Positions 33,496-41,225 of a stretch of DNA of 64,000 nucleotides are shown piece by piece (within the stretch, counting starts at the first letter, position 1; each line of letters begins with the position of its first letter). The stretch is from positions 1 through 64,000 of the forward strand of contig NZ_CP047593.1 of the NCBI RefSeq assembly GCF_009905215.1. Direction: 5' to 3'. The position numbers and the translations under genes were made by a program. Under the pieces are notes generated by a model. That model worked only from the letters and a program-made list of their open reading frames with translations. It had not been told where the DNA came from and made no database searches. The stretch is from Tichowtungia aerotolerans. Lineage in GTDB: Bacteria > Verrucomicrobiota > Kiritimatiellia > Kiritimatiellales > Tichowtungiaceae.

Positions 33496-33999
33496 TTATC
33501 CATGAAAGATGAAGAACTTGCGGCCGGTGTAGTTGATGAGCAATGCGGCGATGGCAGCGCAGGCATAGGAATAAGTGGTATCGAAGCCGGCAAAACGGAT
33601 CAGCAGGTCACCGGCTGCTGTTCCGAGAAAAAAGGCGACGGTTGACACGGCGTAGAACAGAATCAGCTCATGGTGGCGCTTGTGCTTGCCTGCCTTGAAG
33701 ACAAACAGGACGTTGAGCACATATGCCGTAAAGTTGGAAAACATGAAGCAGATGACTTTGTCGATCCAGTAGTTGCGCAGGCGAACGGCCTCAGTCACTT
33801 CACGAATATCCAGATTCATCAGCCCGAGAAGCCTGGTGAACGGATCACTTTCGGTCAGTGCCGGAAAAACCAGCCATGCAAACAGAAAAAAGACCGACAT
33901 ATCCACCACAGTGGCGATTCCACCGCACATGCCGTATTTAATGAACTGCACGAAATGATTGTCTTTGTCGTTCAGGAAAGAAAAAATCAGTTTTCTCAT
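33496..33999 (-). CDS. GtrA-like membrane protein
   Basis: A 167-residue protein with four membrane helices of the GtrA family: FIKYGMCGGIATVVDMSVFFLFAWL, then FMFSNFTAYVLNVLFVFK (the SNF...N..F.F signature) and GRKFFIFHG at the end. GtrA-like proteins are thought to flip or help transfer polyprenyl-linked sugars. An extra insertion (about 47-75) separates helices one and two. Convergent with coaB. Confidence 0.85.
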   Translation of the reverse strand: MRKLIFSFLNDKDNHFVQFIKYGMCGGIATVVDMSVFFLFAWLVFPALTESDPFTRLLGLMNLDIREVTEAVRLRNYWIDKVICFMFSNFTAYVLNVLFVFKAGKHKRHHELILFYAVSTVAFFLGTAAGDLLIRFAGFDTTYSYACAAIAALLINYTGRKFFIFHG

Positions 34000-34023: not shown

Positions 34024-35001
34024 TTAAATATTCCACTCCGTTGTCTGTGTTTCAGGTTCACTTCCATCTATGCGCACCAACAGCTGGTGCAGGACTCCGA
34101 ACACGGCGAATGGAATCACCATGGCGTACATCATCAGGCGAATGAAGCCGAAGTGATACAGCGGGTTTTCAACAGCCATGTAGATGTTCCAGAAAATGAG
34201 AAGACAGCAGAACCAGACGCCAACAAAATTGGGAAAGGCGTCGCCGGAATGCATCATTTTAAAACCAGGCAACCGTTTTTTCGTAAACGGAAAGAGAATA
34301 TTGGAACCCATATGCCCCATCTGGTCTTCGATTACGTGAACCATATAAGCCCCGGCAATAACGACTCCGGCTTTCCACGTCCAGATGGAAGCCATCCCCG
34401 CCAGAGCCAGTCCTACCGTTAGAGAGTGCGACCAGTTTCGGTGCCAAGGAAGAAAGTCGACATCCACCTCCCCGGCTTCATTGCGCTGAAACGCGAAACT
34501 GGGACCGTCAAAGATATCGACGGTATAGGTCGTCTCGCAACTCTGCAGGATCGGCGCGTTAAACTTTGCGACACCAACGGATCGCGGCTCGGGCAGCGAG
34601 TCGGGTTGCGGCACCTGGCCGGTGCTGACAATCGGTCCGAACTGCACGCGCACCTCTCCGGCTTCCGGATCAATTCTGACGCGATACTGCCGCCAGTTAT
34701 CTGCGTCCATTTTGATCGTCGCCAGTTTGAGCGTGGTGCGCCGGCCTTCTGCAGCCAGCAAAACGGCTTTGGCGACAGCGTCGGCGACCGGCTGCGGATC
34801 AAGCTGGTCGGGGTGCGGTTCAATCTGGATATCGTGGCTGTAGAAGAAGCGGTAGAACTTAAAATCCACTGTATCGGGAAGGATGCCGGCCACCGCGCCG
34901 AGAATAAAATACGCCGGATTGCCATTCTGGGCAGTCTCTACAGCCCACGGGCAAAATGAGGCTACCGTGACTCCGGATATAAAATGGGCGATGCCTTTCA
35001 T
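34024..35001 (-). CDS. Membrane-bound metal-dependent hydrolase (YdjM-like)
   Basis: A 325-residue protein resembling the YdjM/LexA-regulated membrane hydrolase family. Candidate metal residues are AHFISGV (His), GILPDTVDFKF (Asp), PWHRNWSHSLTVGL (HRxxSHS) and MVHVIEDQMGHMG. Several hydrophobic helices occur at both ends, with a ~150-residue soluble insertion (about 65-200) that is unusual for the family. The start at 35001 lies two bases after the TctA-like stop. It is the last of three tightly packed genes with an OB-fold protein and a permease; the substrate is unknown. Confidence 0.7.
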   Translation of the reverse strand: MKGIAHFISGVTVASFCPWAVETAQNGNPAYFILGAVAGILPDTVDFKFYRFFYSHDIQIEPHPDQLDPQPVADAVAKAVLLAAEGRRTTLKLATIKMDADNWRQYRVRIDPEAGEVRVQFGPIVSTGQVPQPDSLPEPRSVGVAKFNAPILQSCETTYTVDIFDGPSFAFQRNEAGEVDVDFLPWHRNWSHSLTVGLALAGMASIWTWKAGVVIAGAYMVHVIEDQMGHMGSNILFPFTKKRLPGFKMMHSGDAFPNFVGVWFCCLLIFWNIYMAVENPLYHFGFIRLMMYAMVIPFAVFGVLHQLLVRIDGSEPETQTTEWNI

Positions 35002-35003
35002 AA

Positions 35004-36332
35004 TCAGAGGAGTCCCAAAAATGCGGCGATGGGTTCGCCCATGCCGGACATGTTGCAGGCGATCGGAAGCAGCAGGATGCCGAGGCAGTTGAGGCGGCGC
35101 GACCCGAACAGTACGGGAATGAGGCCGATACCGGTGCCGACGACCATGACAAACAGACCGATCCCACCGGTCATTGAAAAAACAAGCGCAACGATGATTC
35201 CCAACGCGACAATTGAAATCAAACGATAGTCCACTTTCTTCATGAGCTTGAGCATCCATTTGGTGAGCGGGGACATCAGAAGGAAGGACAGTCCGCCGGC
35301 GAGAGCGATAGACCCGAGTGCGAGATAATAATCGCCCCATGTTTTCGGCGTGTAGAGTCCTTTTATGATCCATGCGCCGCCACCGCGGGTGAGGAACAGC
35401 CCCGGCACAAAAAAGAGCATGAGAGCGCCGGCATAGTAGACCACTTTGGAAACGCCCTGAGACATCAGGAAGACCCGTTCGTCCCGCTGGGCTGTGGCGT
35501 GCCCGGCCAGCAGTCCGCCCACCCCGCCGGTCACGACCGGAAAGAATGCGGCAAAGCCGCCTCCGATGCCGCCGGCGATGCCACCGCGCAGCAGCAGGTC
35601 TCCGTTGATGTTCAGCGTGTCGCGCACGTACTGCTTCGGAACGTTCGCTCCGCAGAGCACGTTGAGCAGGCACCACGGAATCGCGAACAGGCCGACAAAA
35701 GCAGGCATGATGTTCTGGAAAGCATTGTCGATATCAATCGGCGCACGGTAGAGCAGCAGAAAGCCGAACAGTCCGGAAAGAATGAATGTGAAAATTCCGG
35801 CGCTGAGCGTGGACCAGGCGTCGGCGAATTTCGGCCAGCCGGCAGGACCGCAGGTACCGCCCTTCGGCCATTCAGTCATCAGAATAAATGTGATAATGAC
35901 CCACAAAATCCAGTGCATATGCGGAGCAAACACATTGCGAGCAACCGGCAGGAATTTCGGAGCGAACGGCGCCACGATAAACACGAGTATGAACAGACCG
36001 ATCAGACTGCCCGCGCCAATGATCATTGCGCCTTCGTAACCACGCCCGGTCATCAGATATTTCTGCCCCGGCAGCACGGTAAAGATGGCACTTTCGTCCG
36101 GCGCGCCGAGAAGGACCGAAGGAATGGTATTGAGCACGGACCAGCCGACGACAAGCCCGATCATGAACGGCAGATATAGTTCCGGAACGACCGCCATCCC
36201 AATACTCTGCATTTTATAGATAAGCAACACCGCCAAACCCATCACGTTATAAATGTGAAGTCCCGGCAAAACAGCCAGAAAACAGGCCAGCGCCGTTCCG
36301 GCCAGCACTGAAAGTGCTGCCACGACGATCAT
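35004..36332 (-). CDS. TctA-like permease (DUF112/COG1784 type)
   Basis: A 442-residue protein with about ten membrane helices. It resembles the TctA family of tripartite tricarboxylate transporters and particularly the archaeal-type stand-alone members: LPGLHIYNVMGLAVLL, NTIPSVLLGAPDESAIFTVLPGQKYLMTGRGYEGA, and FPVVTGGVGGLLAGHATAQRD. No TctB or TctC partner is present. It overlaps the upstream OB-fold gene by ATGA and touches the hydrolase gene. Transport substrate unknown. Confidence 0.8.
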   Translation of the reverse strand: MIVVAALSVLAGTALACFLAVLPGLHIYNVMGLAVLLIYKMQSIGMAVVPELYLPFMIGLVVGWSVLNTIPSVLLGAPDESAIFTVLPGQKYLMTGRGYEGAMIIGAGSLIGLFILVFIVAPFAPKFLPVARNVFAPHMHWILWVIITFILMTEWPKGGTCGPAGWPKFADAWSTLSAGIFTFILSGLFGFLLLYRAPIDIDNAFQNIMPAFVGLFAIPWCLLNVLCGANVPKQYVRDTLNINGDLLLRGGIAGGIGGGFAAFFPVVTGGVGGLLAGHATAQRDERVFLMSQGVSKVVYYAGALMLFFVPGLFLTRGGGAWIIKGLYTPKTWGDYYLALGSIALAGGLSFLLMSPLTKWMLKLMKKVDYRLISIVALGIIVALVFSMTGGIGLFVMVVGTGIGLIPVLFGSRRLNCLGILLLPIACNMSGMGEPIAAFLGLL

Positions 36333-37393
36333 TCGTTCATCTCCACGCTGAATGCACCAATATTTTCTGGAATCAGTTCGAGAGTTCCTTTGTAGGCAAC
36401 CAGCGGCGCTGTCACCCGCAACCTCACGCCTTCTTCGAGCGCGTCACGTTCTTCTCCGGACACTTTTTTATCCCAGAACAGAACAGCCATATCGCCGGTT
36501 TCATCGCGAATGGGATAGCATACTCCACCGGGAATGGAGCGCGGTTCGCCAAGTGTTCCGGTGACTGTAAAAACAGCTCCTTCCTGCTCGGCTCTAATGT
36601 CGGCAATCGATGCCTTAATCGGCATCTGTGCCTCGGGCACTTCATGCAGATCCGCGTCGTCCCATACTTTCAACTGCACCTTGCCTTTATAAACATCCAC
36701 CTTGCCGGATGCGCTGATTATTTTTCCAGGCATCGGAAGAGTTTTTTCCAATTTCTGAAAAACCTTGTCCCAAAAGACAACCTCCAGTTCTGCGCCGTCC
36801 CGTTCCAGCGTCAGCACATAGGGAGCTTTCGAGCCGGGACCCGGGATTTGAATATTTCTGAGTGTTCCGACGATCGAAATCCGTTCATCTTTCTGCGCGG
36901 CGGACACCTCCGCCAGCGGCACCGGGTTCAACATGATTGCAGAGGATGTATCTGAACGTTTGCGCTGCAAGATCATCTGGTCGGCAGACTGCATCCGGAG
37001 TTTAATCTCCTGATCCGCGCTGACGCTGAGACTGCCGGCCACTTCGACCCGATCGCCGACATACGGCAGGCGGCCCGCACGCTGGAGGGCTTCGGCCTGC
37101 GCCCGCCCCCCCATGACGGCGATGTCCCCGCTACCGTCGTTCAGGGTAAAAACAACTCCACCGGATTTGAATACGTAGGCGTCGCGAATGACCTCGCCGG
37201 TGATACGCACATAGGCAAAGTTCATGGCCGGATTGATTTCCGCCACCTTTACCACAGGAATATCGCGATGGATGGAATAGAAATAGAGCAGGATCAGGCC
37301 CGCCACAGCCAAGATAACCGAAGCCAATTGAAGCACCCGCACTCGAAGCGGACGTTTTACCTGCGGACCGTAAACCGGGTAATCATCACCCAT
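36329..37393 (-). CDS. Membrane-anchored multi-OB-fold protein
   Basis: A 354-residue protein with one N-terminal membrane helix (about 20-42, VLQLASVILAVAGLILLYFY) and, beyond it, about three OB-fold modules: NFAYVRITGEVIRDAYVFKSGGVVFTLND, ERISIVGTLRNIQI ... APYVLTLERDG, and GAVFTVTGTLGEPRSIPGG. OB modules of this kind occur in nucleic-acid-binding and ligand-binding exported proteins. It overlaps the TctA-like gene. Two degenerate dyads lie within it. Ligand unknown. Confidence 0.7.
   Translation of the reverse strand: MGDDYPVYGPQVKRPLRVRVLQLASVILAVAGLILLYFYSIHRDIPVVKVAEINPAMNFAYVRITGEVIRDAYVFKSGGVVFTLNDGSGDIAVMGGRAQAEALQRAGRLPYVGDRVEVAGSLSVSADQEIKLRMQSADQMILQRKRSDTSSAIMLNPVPLAEVSAAQKDERISIVGTLRNIQIPGPGSKAPYVLTLERDGAELEVVFWDKVFQKLEKTLPMPGKIISASGKVDVYKGKVQLKVWDDADLHEVPEAQMPIKASIADIRAEQEGAVFTVTGTLGEPRSIPGGVCYPIRDETGDMAVLFWDKKVSGEERDALEEGVRLRVTAPLVAYKGTLELIPENIGAFSVEMNE
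36723..36761. repeat. Two degenerate dyads 22 bp apart
   Basis: TTTCCAG-GCA-TCGGAAG (36723) and TTTCCAA-TTT-CTGAAAA (36745), in the OB-fold gene. Confidence 0.5.
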
Positions 37394-37407: not shown

Positions 37408-38340
37408 TTAGAAGGCCCCGAAAACCACAGAGCTGAAGGTTGTAACCGGCGAGGTTTCACGCATGTCATCAATCGCGGCGCGCAGCTCTTCGAACAGCTT
37501 CTGCGCTTCGACATACATCTGATCGTCTTCCATCAGCTTGCCGAGAGTCCCCTCACCGGACCTGATTTTCTCTGTAATTTCGCGAATATTTGCAGCGGCA
37601 CTGGAAACGTCGGCATACAGTGCGTCATCTTCGGACAGAAGTCTGCCCAGCGTTCCTTTTCCATTCACTAGACGTTCGCTGACATCGCTCAAATTGGCAA
37701 CCGTCTTCTGAACGTCGTTATAAATTGTCTCGTCCTGAATCAGCTTTCCGATGGTTCCCTCTCCATTCGAGAGTTTGGCACTGATGACATTCAGGTTATC
37801 CACCATCGTTTTCAGTGATTTATACATTTCATCATCTGAAAGAAGACGACCCAAGGTACCTTCTCCAGCGGTCACTTTCCGGGTCATTGCCTTAAACTCA
37901 CCGACGGCATCACCCAGCTCCTGCAGAATATCAATGGGTTCATCCCCCATAATGGTCGTACTGGGAGGAAGTGCCGGAGCTCCCAGCGGTCCTTCATAGA
38001 GTTTCAGCAGTTTACCACCCAGCATAGACGATGCCACCACTTCCACTTTATAACCCTCTCGGAATTCCACCGGAACTTCGAGATCGCTTTCGACGATCAC
38101 GTGATTGTTCTCCAGATAAGTGGCTTTGACAATCCCCACCTTGGTGCCGCGCAGAAACACATTGTCGCCTTCGCGCAACCCACCGACCTCTGAGAAGATG
38201 ACCCTAACTGGATATTTTTTCTGCAGAAAGTTCTGTCGGCTGAGCACGATGGTGAAAACTCCCAGAGCAATCAGGATTACAAACATAAACATCCCGACAA
38301 GGACTTCAATACTCAGGTCTTTTTTGTATTTATCAGGCAT
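37408..38340 (-). CDS. mlaD: MlaD-family MCE protein with GEGTLG repeats
   Basis: A 310-residue lipid-binding subunit of a phospholipid transport system. One N-terminal membrane helix (LVGMFMFVILIALGVFTIVL) leads into the MCE domain (VRVIFSEVGGLREGDNVFLRGTKVGIV, residues about 43-115). The C-terminal half has four copies of a G(E/K)GT(L/I)G(R/K)L motif followed by an acidic patch and Tyr (GEGTLGRLLSDDEMY, GEGTIGKLIQDETIY, GKGTLGRLLSEDDALY, GEGTLGKLMEDDQMY). It is encoded with the ATPase and permease, overlapping mlaF by eight bases. Confidence 0.93.
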   Translation of the reverse strand: MPDKYKKDLSIEVLVGMFMFVILIALGVFTIVLSRQNFLQKKYPVRVIFSEVGGLREGDNVFLRGTKVGIVKATYLENNHVIVESDLEVPVEFREGYKVEVVASSMLGGKLLKLYEGPLGAPALPPSTTIMGDEPIDILQELGDAVGEFKAMTRKVTAGEGTLGRLLSDDEMYKSLKTMVDNLNVISAKLSNGEGTIGKLIQDETIYNDVQKTVANLSDVSERLVNGKGTLGRLLSEDDALYADVSSAAANIREITEKIRSGEGTLGKLMEDDQMYVEAQKLFEELRAAIDDMRETSPVTTFSSVVFGAF

Positions 38341-39103
38341 GATTCTTCATTCCTTTCTCCCATTCCCCTCGACGGGTGATGTACTGGGACTCGAGGAACC
38401 GCTGAACGGTCTCATTTTTTGATTCTATAAATTCTTCAGGGGTAGCGTTTTCAACTATTCTTCCACCGTCAATCATCATAATACGCGTGCCGATGGCCAG
38501 AGCGCTGTGCAGATCGTGCGTCACCACCACACTGGTAATGCCCAGTTCATTGCGAAGGTTTTCGATCAGTCCGTCAATCAGGCGCGATGTGACCGGATCG
38601 AGGCCGGATGTCGGCTCGTCGTAAAGAATAATCTCCGGATTCATTACGATGGCCCGCGCCAGCCCAACTCTTTTCTGCATTCCGCCGGACAGGTCGGAAG
38701 GATATTTATCAACCGCTTCCTGCATATTCAGCAGACTCAGTTTTTCGAGGACGGTTTTTTCGATTTCCTCTTCGCTCATTTTGGTGTGCTCACGCAAAGG
38801 CAAAGCGACATTCTCAAACACCGTTAACCACTGCAGCAGCGCCGCGCCTTGGAAAAGCACACCAAACCGGCCGCGAATCCGCGCCAGCTCCGGCCCGCTG
38901 GCGGAACTGATTACATCGTCGCCGATGCGCACAGTTCCGCTGTCCGGAACCAACAGCTGCACCATGTGCTTCAGCGTCACACTTTTTCCTGCGCCCGACA
39001 GACCGACCACAACAAACGTCTCCCCCTTCGGAACCTCAAAAGAGACTCCGTCGAGGACAGTCTTTCTGCCCAGCTTTTTCGTTACATTTTCGAACTTGAT
39101 CAT
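38333..39103 (-). CDS. mlaF: MlaF-type ABC ATPase
   Basis: A 256-residue ABC ATPase for phospholipid transport. Walker A reads VVGLSGAGKSVTLKH, signature LSGGMQKRVGLARA, Walker B IILYDEPTSGLDP, switch VVTHDLHSAL. The start at 39103 gives the family N-terminus MIKFENVTKKLGRK and overlaps the mlaE stop; codons further upstream are not family-like. MlaF powers lipid movement through MlaE and MlaD between the membranes. Confidence 0.95.
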   Translation of the reverse strand: MIKFENVTKKLGRKTVLDGVSFEVPKGETFVVVGLSGAGKSVTLKHMVQLLVPDSGTVRIGDDVISSASGPELARIRGRFGVLFQGAALLQWLTVFENVALPLREHTKMSEEEIEKTVLEKLSLLNMQEAVDKYPSDLSGGMQKRVGLARAIVMNPEIILYDEPTSGLDPVTSRLIDGLIENLRNELGITSVVVTHDLHSALAIGTRIMMIDGGRIVENATPEEFIESKNETVQRFLESQYITRRGEWEKGMKNHA

Positions 39104-39930
39104 ATGTAAAACAGCCGTGTAATCATGTAGCCGACAATCAGGATCAGCAGAAAAGAGATAATCACAGTGCGGCGGGTGGCCCGTCCCACCCCAACGGCCC
39201 CTTCGGAAGTCGTCAGCCCCTGATGACACGCGACCGTAGCGATAATGACTCCGAAGACCAACGCCTTAAGCAGGCCGACATACAAATCCTTATTCTCGGC
39301 ATAGCGGGTGGCGTTGTCGAGATAAGCCTGAAATGCCACACCGAGCTGAGTGGAACCGACAACACCGCCGCCAAAAATCCCGATCAGATTGGTATAAATC
39401 GTCAGAATCGGCATCATCACCGCCAAAGCAACCAGCCGCGGCATCACCAGAAAACGATGGGGGTCAATCGACATCACCTCAAGCGCGGCGATTTCTTCCG
39501 AGACAGTCATCGTCCCAAGCTGAGCGGCAATTGCGGACCCGACACTGGCTGCAATAATCAGGCCGGTCATAAACGGTCCCATTTCGCGAATCATCGAAAC
39601 CGCCACCGCAGAACCGATGAATTCCTCCTGCCCATAGCGGCGCAGCTCCAGGCCGGTCTGCAACGCCAGGATCATTCCCGTGAACATGGCCACCACCGTA
39701 ATTACCCCCAGGCTCTTAATTCCGGTGATATACAGCTGCATGGATGTCTCATACCGGGCGCGCGGGCGCCAAAGGGTCCGGATATAAAGCGTGGAAGAAG
39801 CCAGCATAATCAGGGCCTGCCCCATCTCGTGACAGGCCATCAGAATAATCCGACCCAGCCGCCGGAACGACCGGATCGGAAGATCCAGATAACTCATTCG
39901 CTCCCGATGTTCTGACGCTGTAACCTTCAT
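39100..39930 (-). CDS. mlaE: MlaE-type lipid ABC permease
   Basis: A 276-residue permease of the MlaE family: KSLGVITVVAMFTGMILALQTGLELRRYGQEEFIG, VSMIREMGPFMTGLIIAASVGSAIAAQLGTM and SEEIAALEVMSIDPHRFLVMPR are diagnostic. About five or six membrane helices. It begins the Mla transport gene set here and overlaps mlaF (ATGA). Its start shares a base with the stop of the aromatic repeat gene. A start at the internal MSYLDLPIRS is possible. Confidence 0.95.
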   Translation of the reverse strand: MKVTASEHRERMSYLDLPIRSFRRLGRIILMACHEMGQALIMLASSTLYIRTLWRPRARYETSMQLYITGIKSLGVITVVAMFTGMILALQTGLELRRYGQEEFIGSAVAVSMIREMGPFMTGLIIAASVGSAIAAQLGTMTVSEEIAALEVMSIDPHRFLVMPRLVALAVMMPILTIYTNLIGIFGGGVVGSTQLGVAFQAYLDNATRYAENKDLYVGLLKALVFGVIIATVACHQGLTTSEGAVGVGRATRRTVIISFLLILIVGYMITRLFYI

Positions 39931-41225
39931 TATTTTCCTAAACTAAACCAAAAGATTTTCATTTTTTTCGAATCGCCGTCCTTTTTATACCCGAGTAAAC
40001 CTTTCAGTAAAGCCCATTCGGATCGCTCCGCTTCCGGTTCTTTTTCGCTGTTCCAGATGAACCATAACATGTCTTTTTTGACCAGCCCGTCATCATTCGT
40101 TTGTTTATAAAGCGTCCAAAGCGGCGACCAGTTTCGTTCGATCGGAGCAGAGTCCAGCGGCCACAGCTCCAGCATCCGAAATCGCGATTGATCGCCCGCC
40201 CGCTTCCAGCTCATCAACGGCCAGATTTTCCATCCCGTGGAAACTTCGTCCCACTCCTCTTCCGGCACCTCCGGCTCCGGCAGCTTTTTGGACTGCCAAT
40301 AGAAAAACGGCAGCGCCAGTTTGCGGTTCACCTGCAGATGTTCCTGCCGGGTGTTTTCCGACCACAGGAGAGGCCAGAGCGCAAAACGACGGTCAATTCG
40401 TCCGCCCGCCTCCAGTTTGCGGCCCCACAACGGCCAGACAAACAACTTATCGAGCTGCTCACTTTTCACTTTCTGAATGAACGGCCACGGACACAGAAGG
40501 CGGTCTTCGCGCTCTCCATCCGTGAAACGGAAAAACGGCGGAATCACCCACCAGGTGCTTTCTTTATCCAGTTTACTGCGCCCGAGAATTGGAAAGAGAA
40601 TCCACGACTTTCCGGAGTCCCCGGGATAAAAATATTCTGCCGATGTCCAGAACGGCCACAGGACAAATTTTTTCTCATACTGATTCTCGAGCACCGTTTT
40701 TCCAACGATTGGAAAAACCCGATCGCGCTGAATGCCGTCGCCGCGTGTGTGCGAATAGATGGGCCACAGAACACTGGTGGTTTTCACCTCATTGATCTGC
40801 GATTTCCCGAACATTGGAAAAAGCACAAACATGATTTTGTCGCGCCCGAGGAACTCGTGAATGGTTCCGCCCAGAGGGAACAGCGCGAAATAATTTTCGC
40901 CGTTGACATCCCGACCCTGAAAATAGATTGGCAGCAGCCAGTTGCGATCGCGCGGCAATTCCGAATCGGTCGCAAAATTATGCGTCCACCAAAAAAGAAA
41001 CGCCCGGGAAGATTCTTCATTTTTGAACGATTTGCGCAAATAAAGCGGCCAGAGATAGTCCTGAATGGTTCCTTCCTCCAGCTCCGTTTTGGAATAGAAT
41101 GGACGCACTGCAAAAAACGAACCTTCTTCTGTCTGAAGGCGATCGTAAAACGGATACAAATCAGCAACCGCGGTGAAGCAGAACAGCACTCCCATCAATC
41201 CTATCAAATGACCTTTTCGAAACAT
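39930..41225 (-). CDS. Exported aromatic-repeat protein of the Mla operon
   Basis: A 431-residue protein with a hydrophobic N-terminus (HLIGLMGVLFCFTAVADLYPFY), a likely signal peptide. I do not know its family. The body is made of short alternating units around W/F-P motifs: LWPLYLR, LLPIYFQGR, LFPLGG, LFPMFGK, LWPIYSH, VFPIVGK, LWPFWTS, LFPILGR, VIPPFFR, PWPFIQK, VWPLWGR, LWPLLWS, IWPLMSW, LWPLDSA. The regular 25-45 residue period suggests a beta-rich repeat fold, perhaps a barrel. It directly precedes mlaE and is probably co-transcribed, so an outer-membrane or periplasmic partner is possible. It has at least one exact dyad repeat. Confidence 0.7.
   Translation of the reverse strand: MFRKGHLIGLMGVLFCFTAVADLYPFYDRLQTEEGSFFAVRPFYSKTELEEGTIQDYLWPLYLRKSFKNEESSRAFLFWWTHNFATDSELPRDRNWLLPIYFQGRDVNGENYFALFPLGGTIHEFLGRDKIMFVLFPMFGKSQINEVKTTSVLWPIYSHTRGDGIQRDRVFPIVGKTVLENQYEKKFVLWPFWTSAEYFYPGDSGKSWILFPILGRSKLDKESTWWVIPPFFRFTDGEREDRLLCPWPFIQKVKSEQLDKLFVWPLWGRKLEAGGRIDRRFALWPLLWSENTRQEHLQVNRKLALPFFYWQSKKLPEPEVPEEEWDEVSTGWKIWPLMSWKRAGDQSRFRMLELWPLDSAPIERNWSPLWTLYKQTNDDGLVKKDMLWFIWNSEKEPEAERSEWALLKGLLGYKKDGDSKKMKIFWFSLGK
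40699..40715. repeat. Dyad repeat, exact, in aromatic-repeat gene
   Basis: TTTCCAA-CGA-TTGGAAA extended to 23 bp (GTTTTT...AAAAAC), translated as FPIVGK. A degenerate copy (TTCCCGA-ACA-TTGGAAA) follows at 40804, 105 bp on, and another (TTTCCAT-CCC-GTGGAAA) is at 40227. Confidence 0.88.

Follow-up and report, generated by a model that had tools for sequence, protein, structure and literature searches.

The best candidate for the step in which DNA crosses the membrane of competent archaea is a pair made of an OB-fold protein and a TctA-like permease. In M. maripaludis the two genes, MMJJ_13020 (OB, with a single TM helix) and MMJJ_13030 (TctA-like), form a putative operon, and each of them is essential for natural transformation, the loss of either abolishing it and both having been complemented (PMC10133366). 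Transformation of Methanoculleus thermophilus likewise depends on its TctA homolog; archaea are without ComEC, their TctA-like proteins have no clear TctB/TctC partners, and the authors of that study proposed the TctA-like protein as the archaeal DNA transporter (PMC10133366). The TctA family arCOG04469/COG1784 is widespread in euryarchaea, mostly as stand-alone putative carboxylate transporters, and because of this wide distribution transformation may not be the sole role of the archaeal TctA-like proteins (PMC5898192).

The three-gene locus of Tichowtungia aerotolerans

The stretch of DNA analysed here, which we call the window, comprises 64,000 nucleotides (positions 1 to 64,000 of NZ_CP047593.1) of the T. 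aerotolerans genome, a single contig of 3.88 Mb. Three genes follow one another on its minus strand: a membrane-anchored OB-fold protein of 354 aa (36329-37393; PF01336 in three stretches, 6e-21), a TctA-like permease of 442 aa (35004-36332; PF01970 over the full length, 1.7e-31) and a YdjM-type membrane protein of 325 aa, a predicted metal-dependent hydrolase (34024-35001; PF04307, 2.8e-12), all assigned by Pfam. The ATG of the permease overlaps the stop of the OB gene by 4 bases, while the YdjM gene, with its start at 35001 and its stop at 34024, is separated from the permease stop by a gap of 2 bases; an automatic ORF at 34024-35676 (550 aa) has its start chosen too far upstream. Directly upstream of the OB gene lie MlaD, an MlaF-like ABC ATPase and MlaE (37408-39930, minus strand; identities backed by Pfam), with 14 bases between the end of MlaD and the OB start, and directly downstream of the YdjM gene, about 24 bases away, is a GtrA-family membrane protein (33496-33999, minus strand; PF04138, 3e-13 in Pfam). 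Since the gaps are short, the whole minus-strand run (MlaE-MlaF-MlaD-OB-TctA-YdjM-GtrA) is likely a single operon read as one transcript; a promoter and terminator scan of the locus was uninformative. Neither TctB nor TctC was found beside the permease in the window neighbourhood (Pfam), and no competence genes were found adjoining the trio. An earlier, sequence-only reading of this DNA had described three tightly packed genes without the usual TctB/TctC partners, set between upstream Mla genes and a downstream GtrA on the same strand, and the coordinates and Pfam assignments bear it out. Directly upstream of MlaE there is also a 431-aa protein without a Pfam match (39930-41225), a position kept in relatives (L030, L031).

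The trio resembles MMJJ_13020/13030 in combining a one-helix OB protein with a TctA-like protein lacking TctB/TctC, a likeness of architecture, and its partnerless permease is also reminiscent of the partnerless TctA-family permeases of euryarchaea (arCOG04469/COG1784; PMC5898192). Unlike the archaeal pair, it is found in bacterial hosts that have ComEC, it includes a third gene, a YdjM with a long insert, and the OB protein of the window has three OB folds and lacks a zinc ribbon. Both PF01970 and PF04307 are carried by M. jannaschii, H. volcanii and M. acetivorans, used as control genomes, which is compatible with an archaeal link and goes no further. From these analogies we infer that the trio may be orthologous to the archaeal OB and TctA-like pair, of which it would probably be a three-gene bacterial variant. 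The system had been called undescribed in the sequence-only reading, a term that is only partly right because the OB and TctA-like pair was already known in archaea.

Conservation across the class and variable neighbours

The permease is present in 24 of 58 relatives (those with names are Kiritimatiellota), in most of them with an OB gene before it and a YdjM gene after it. Across 210 genomes of the class, the permease and the long-insert YdjM were found in 73 each and the OB protein in 86; the OB protein is present in 71 of the 73 genomes with TctA, and among 289 sampled genomes of the phylum all those with matches belong to the same class. Both TctA and the long-insert YdjM are encoded in 69 genomes, 14 of which have them on different contigs (Fisher 3e-45, a test that ignores kinship among genomes), and for this reason their association was examined again within families, where the two were concordant in 70 of 77 genomes, a figure reached by 0/100,000 within-family shuffles. 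This concordance extends to families that gained or lost both genes. In family f2, for example, TctA and YdjM are confined to the same three genomes, where they lie on separate contigs, and seventeen have neither. A single-TM OB protein stands directly before the TctA-like permease, on the same strand, in the window and in 38 of the 41 TctA neighbourhoods compared, and 30 of these contain the full OB-TctA-YdjM order, often with overlapping stop and start codons. The arrangement is not due to chance, since across the class these genes are kept and occur together, and the finding of their homologs together far above chance supports a conserved functional unit. Conservation of the trio was the point on which the sequence-only reading had declared itself open to refutation, and homologs are mostly found together, as seen in 69 of the 73 genomes on either side and in the 30 full trios.

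The association is not uniform among the three genes. The OB protein occurs without TctA in 15 genomes of the class and was kept in 14 f2 genomes without both TctA and YdjM, so that, with a further clade in which it accompanies CNNM/CorC genes (see below), the permease and YdjM are the tightest evolutionary partners. It is quite improbable, in our judgement, that the trio is nothing more than an operon of long-standing linkage, whose members are inherited jointly and function separately. The genomes with OB and no TctA would agree with this, as would the 14 class genomes in which TctA and YdjM are both kept on different contigs, but shared operon ancestry is insufficient because in several families the occurrence of TctA follows that of YdjM, also where the two genes are not linked.

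Some individual loci depart from the common pattern. One genome has two complete trios, back to back on opposite strands (L089:4825-11109), and in one relative the YdjM gene is in two pieces about 1 kb apart, perhaps through an insertion, beside an intact permease (L087:5979-7951). In two f2 genomes (L145:3216-6575 and L146:3012-6344) YdjM is unlinked from TctA and adjoins, divergently, a pseudopilin-like gene cluster, and in two others that lack permease and YdjM (L161, L162) the OB gene comes directly after MlaEFD.

The neighbours of the trio are far less constant. Adjacency to Mla is conserved only within the order of the window organism and that to GtrA is limited to close relatives; the context given in the sequence-only reading is therefore true at the window locus and holds only in that order. 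We rejected the idea that the trio works as one unit with Mla or GtrA, their adjacency being confined to the order. Another clade (L106, L112, L103, L158) has a PurA-like ssDNA-binding protein, a LolA-like protein and two CNNM/CorC genes, followed by OB, TctA-like and YdjM genes, and in the same clade the OB gene remains by the CNNM pair where TctA sits elsewhere. Such surroundings bear on an explanation in which the substrates of the trio are envelope lipids or lipid-linked glycans: YdjM would be a lipid phosphohydrolase or phospholipase, its product would be flipped by the TctA-like protein, and the OB protein would bind an oligosaccharide or organise the complex; the loss of these proteins would alter the cell surface and in this way block pilus-dependent DNA uptake indirectly. 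The position between MlaEFD and GtrA in the window's order, the LolA-like and CNNM/CorC membrane proteins of the other clade, the OB gene that stays beside Mla after the loss of TctA and YdjM, and the membrane nature of YdjM itself all fit such a role. However, these neighbours vary between clades while the trio is constant, none of the three proteins has a known lipid-transport fold and the OB domains match nucleic-acid binders, all of which makes an action on lipids unlikely.

Features of the three proteins

The OB protein has a short N-terminus, one TM helix (approximately residues 16-41) and OB folds at about 46-146, 160-255 and 262-354, and its AlphaFold2 model (mean pLDDT 91) shows the same layout, a single membrane helix followed by three OB folds. 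Ahead of the helix lie positive residues, which suggests an outward orientation of the OB folds. Many relatives are shorter, with a zinc ribbon, the helix and one OB fold; the window protein is without the zinc ribbon, which is kept in most relatives, often together with a single OB fold. Among solved structures, the matches of the OB profile were for the most part archaeal RPA and further OB folds that bind ssDNA, and Foldseek matched the model to tandem-OB DNA-binding proteins (HIN, RPA, Teb1, POT1 and BRCA2 folds; best E 5e-15). By profile and modelled structure, the OB folds belong to the nucleic-acid/DNA-binding type. The first OB domain has weak profile similarity to the OB domain of ComEC as found in this bacterial class (hhalign E 5e-5, probability 67), and DUF4131 gave a match below the cut-off in the window protein (E 0.014) and weak ones in 17 of 42 homologs. 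The ComEC OB fold is reported to bind DNA electrostatically (PMC12455585), whereas the OB domains of the trio are neutral to acidic, the first averaging a net charge of about zero, the third being acidic and none being basic.

The permease shares PF01970 with that of the tricarboxylate transporter TctABC, to which it is only distantly similar in profile comparison (hhalign probability 92 against canonical TctA). The TctABC permease has about 500 residues, against 442 in the trio, and TctB and TctC are adjacent only in TctABC, where they adjoin TctA in 7 of the 7 canonical loci compared. Profile comparison also showed that the canonical motifs (PGLG, PEAANNA and TLGxPG) are not conserved in the trio TctA: PGLG is replaced by PGLHxYN, the PEAANNA region is not preserved, and APDES...LPGQ is present instead of the signature. 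No solved structure was found for TctA. A citrate-type transporter was rejected, both the signature motifs and the TctB/TctC partners being missing, and from the sequence ordinary tricarboxylate transport by this permease seems unlikely. A search of plasmids with the window TctA gave no match, also in the 807 plasmid records with canonical TctA; these records were counted with a fragment of Salmonella TctA, which an annotated permease matches at 97.6%.

The trio might instead import or export a small organic anion or a nucleotide. The OB protein would then replace the soluble TctC receptor, YdjM would split a larger compound to free the molecule to be transported, and transport itself would fall to the TctA-like carrier; the transformation defect of the archaeal mutants would be indirect. 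PF01970 is a solute carrier family with widespread archaeal members (PMC5898192), and neutral to acidic OB domains would be in keeping with such a substrate. The unconserved PGLG, PEAANNA and TLGxPG regions, the absence of TctB/TctC from the neighbourhood and OB folds of the nucleic-acid class speak against it, and we regard this kind of transport as somewhat unlikely.

The third protein falls in the YdjM family (PF04307; COG1988, membrane-bound metal-dependent hydrolases), with which it has in common the family match and the full His/Asp set: H6, D43, D46, H187, R188, H192, H222 and D226 do not vary among 36 homologs, and it is accordingly predicted to be a metal-dependent hydrolase. It differs from the rest of the family in the segment between the PDxxD and HRxxxH motifs, where about 130 residues (roughly 55-183) form a beta-rich insertion. 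Every trio member keeps this insertion, and in the AlphaFold2 model of the protein (mean pLDDT 90) it is confidently predicted as a helix and about nine strands. The unusual insertion had been put at 150 residues from the letters of the DNA; it is real, at the smaller size given here. No solved structure was found for YdjM. For a suggested likeness to the nuclease P1 or phospholipase C fold Foldseek gave no support, with no match for the model in the PDB at E 0.001 or better.

ComEC and a possible role in nucleic-acid uptake

The explanation we consider best, with a probability of roughly 0.4, is that the trio may be a cytoplasmic-membrane module through which periplasmic nucleic acid, as DNA or oligonucleotides, is captured, trimmed and transported, a bacterial relative of the archaeal transformation pair. 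On the outside of the membrane, nucleic acid would be held by the anchored OB protein; at the membrane, it would be cut or hydrolysed by the YdjM-type metal enzyme, and the TctA-like protein would let the product pass through. Uptake or processing of nucleic acid is favoured because the architecture matches that of MMJJ_13020/13030, essential for transformation; we infer the substrate, the direction of transport and the action of YdjM on that same substrate. Nucleic-acid uptake had already been guessed in the sequence-only reading, and the archaeal genetics (PMC10133366) and the DNA-binding class of the OB folds strengthen it as a prediction; the genome also carries ComEC. The presence of ComEC, the non-basic OB domains and the survival of the OB protein without TctA in one family are evidence against it, as are the lack of adjoining competence genes, the wide occurrence of TctA-like proteins in euryarchaea and the YdjM model's lack of a significant structural match.

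A bolder proposal is that the trio is a complete, ComEC-independent DNA importer common to archaea and this bacterial class, in which the OB protein captures DNA, the TctA-like protein is the channel for it and the YdjM-type protein is the nuclease. We consider this unlikely; if true, it would identify the archaeal DNA transporter that has long been sought and, through the bacterial genes, reveal the nuclease that partners it. A class that keeps what is apparently the same pair, along with a co-evolving membrane hydrolase, offers a comparative handle and predicts an extra protein in archaea, and the trio provides proteins and hosts in which the function could be studied next to ComEC.

ComEC, which combines a DUF4131 OB fold, the Competence channel and a beta-lactamase-like nuclease (PMC12455585), has a set of roles analogous to that of the trio. 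In the trio, by comparison, the genes are separate, the channel is TctA-type and not PF03772, and the hydrolase is YdjM-type and not metallo-beta-lactamase; in Pfam searches the trio proteins gave no match to the PF03772 competence channel. The likeness of roles is an analogy and not a homology of channel or nuclease. ComEC (PF03772) was found in 199 of the 210 class genomes, including that of the window, where DprA is also present, so this bacterium already has the standard DNA channel. Retention of the trio owing to ComEC loss was rejected, given this distribution and no enrichment of the trio in genomes without ComEC, and compensation for a nuclease-less ComEC showed no association (p 0.50, with protein length as proxy). 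In the ComEC of the window genome (1223444-1225390; L136:5445-7391) an OB domain and a competence channel are evident, with no recognisable metallo-beta-lactamase domain in the C-terminus, and short ComEC proteins occur in many relatives.
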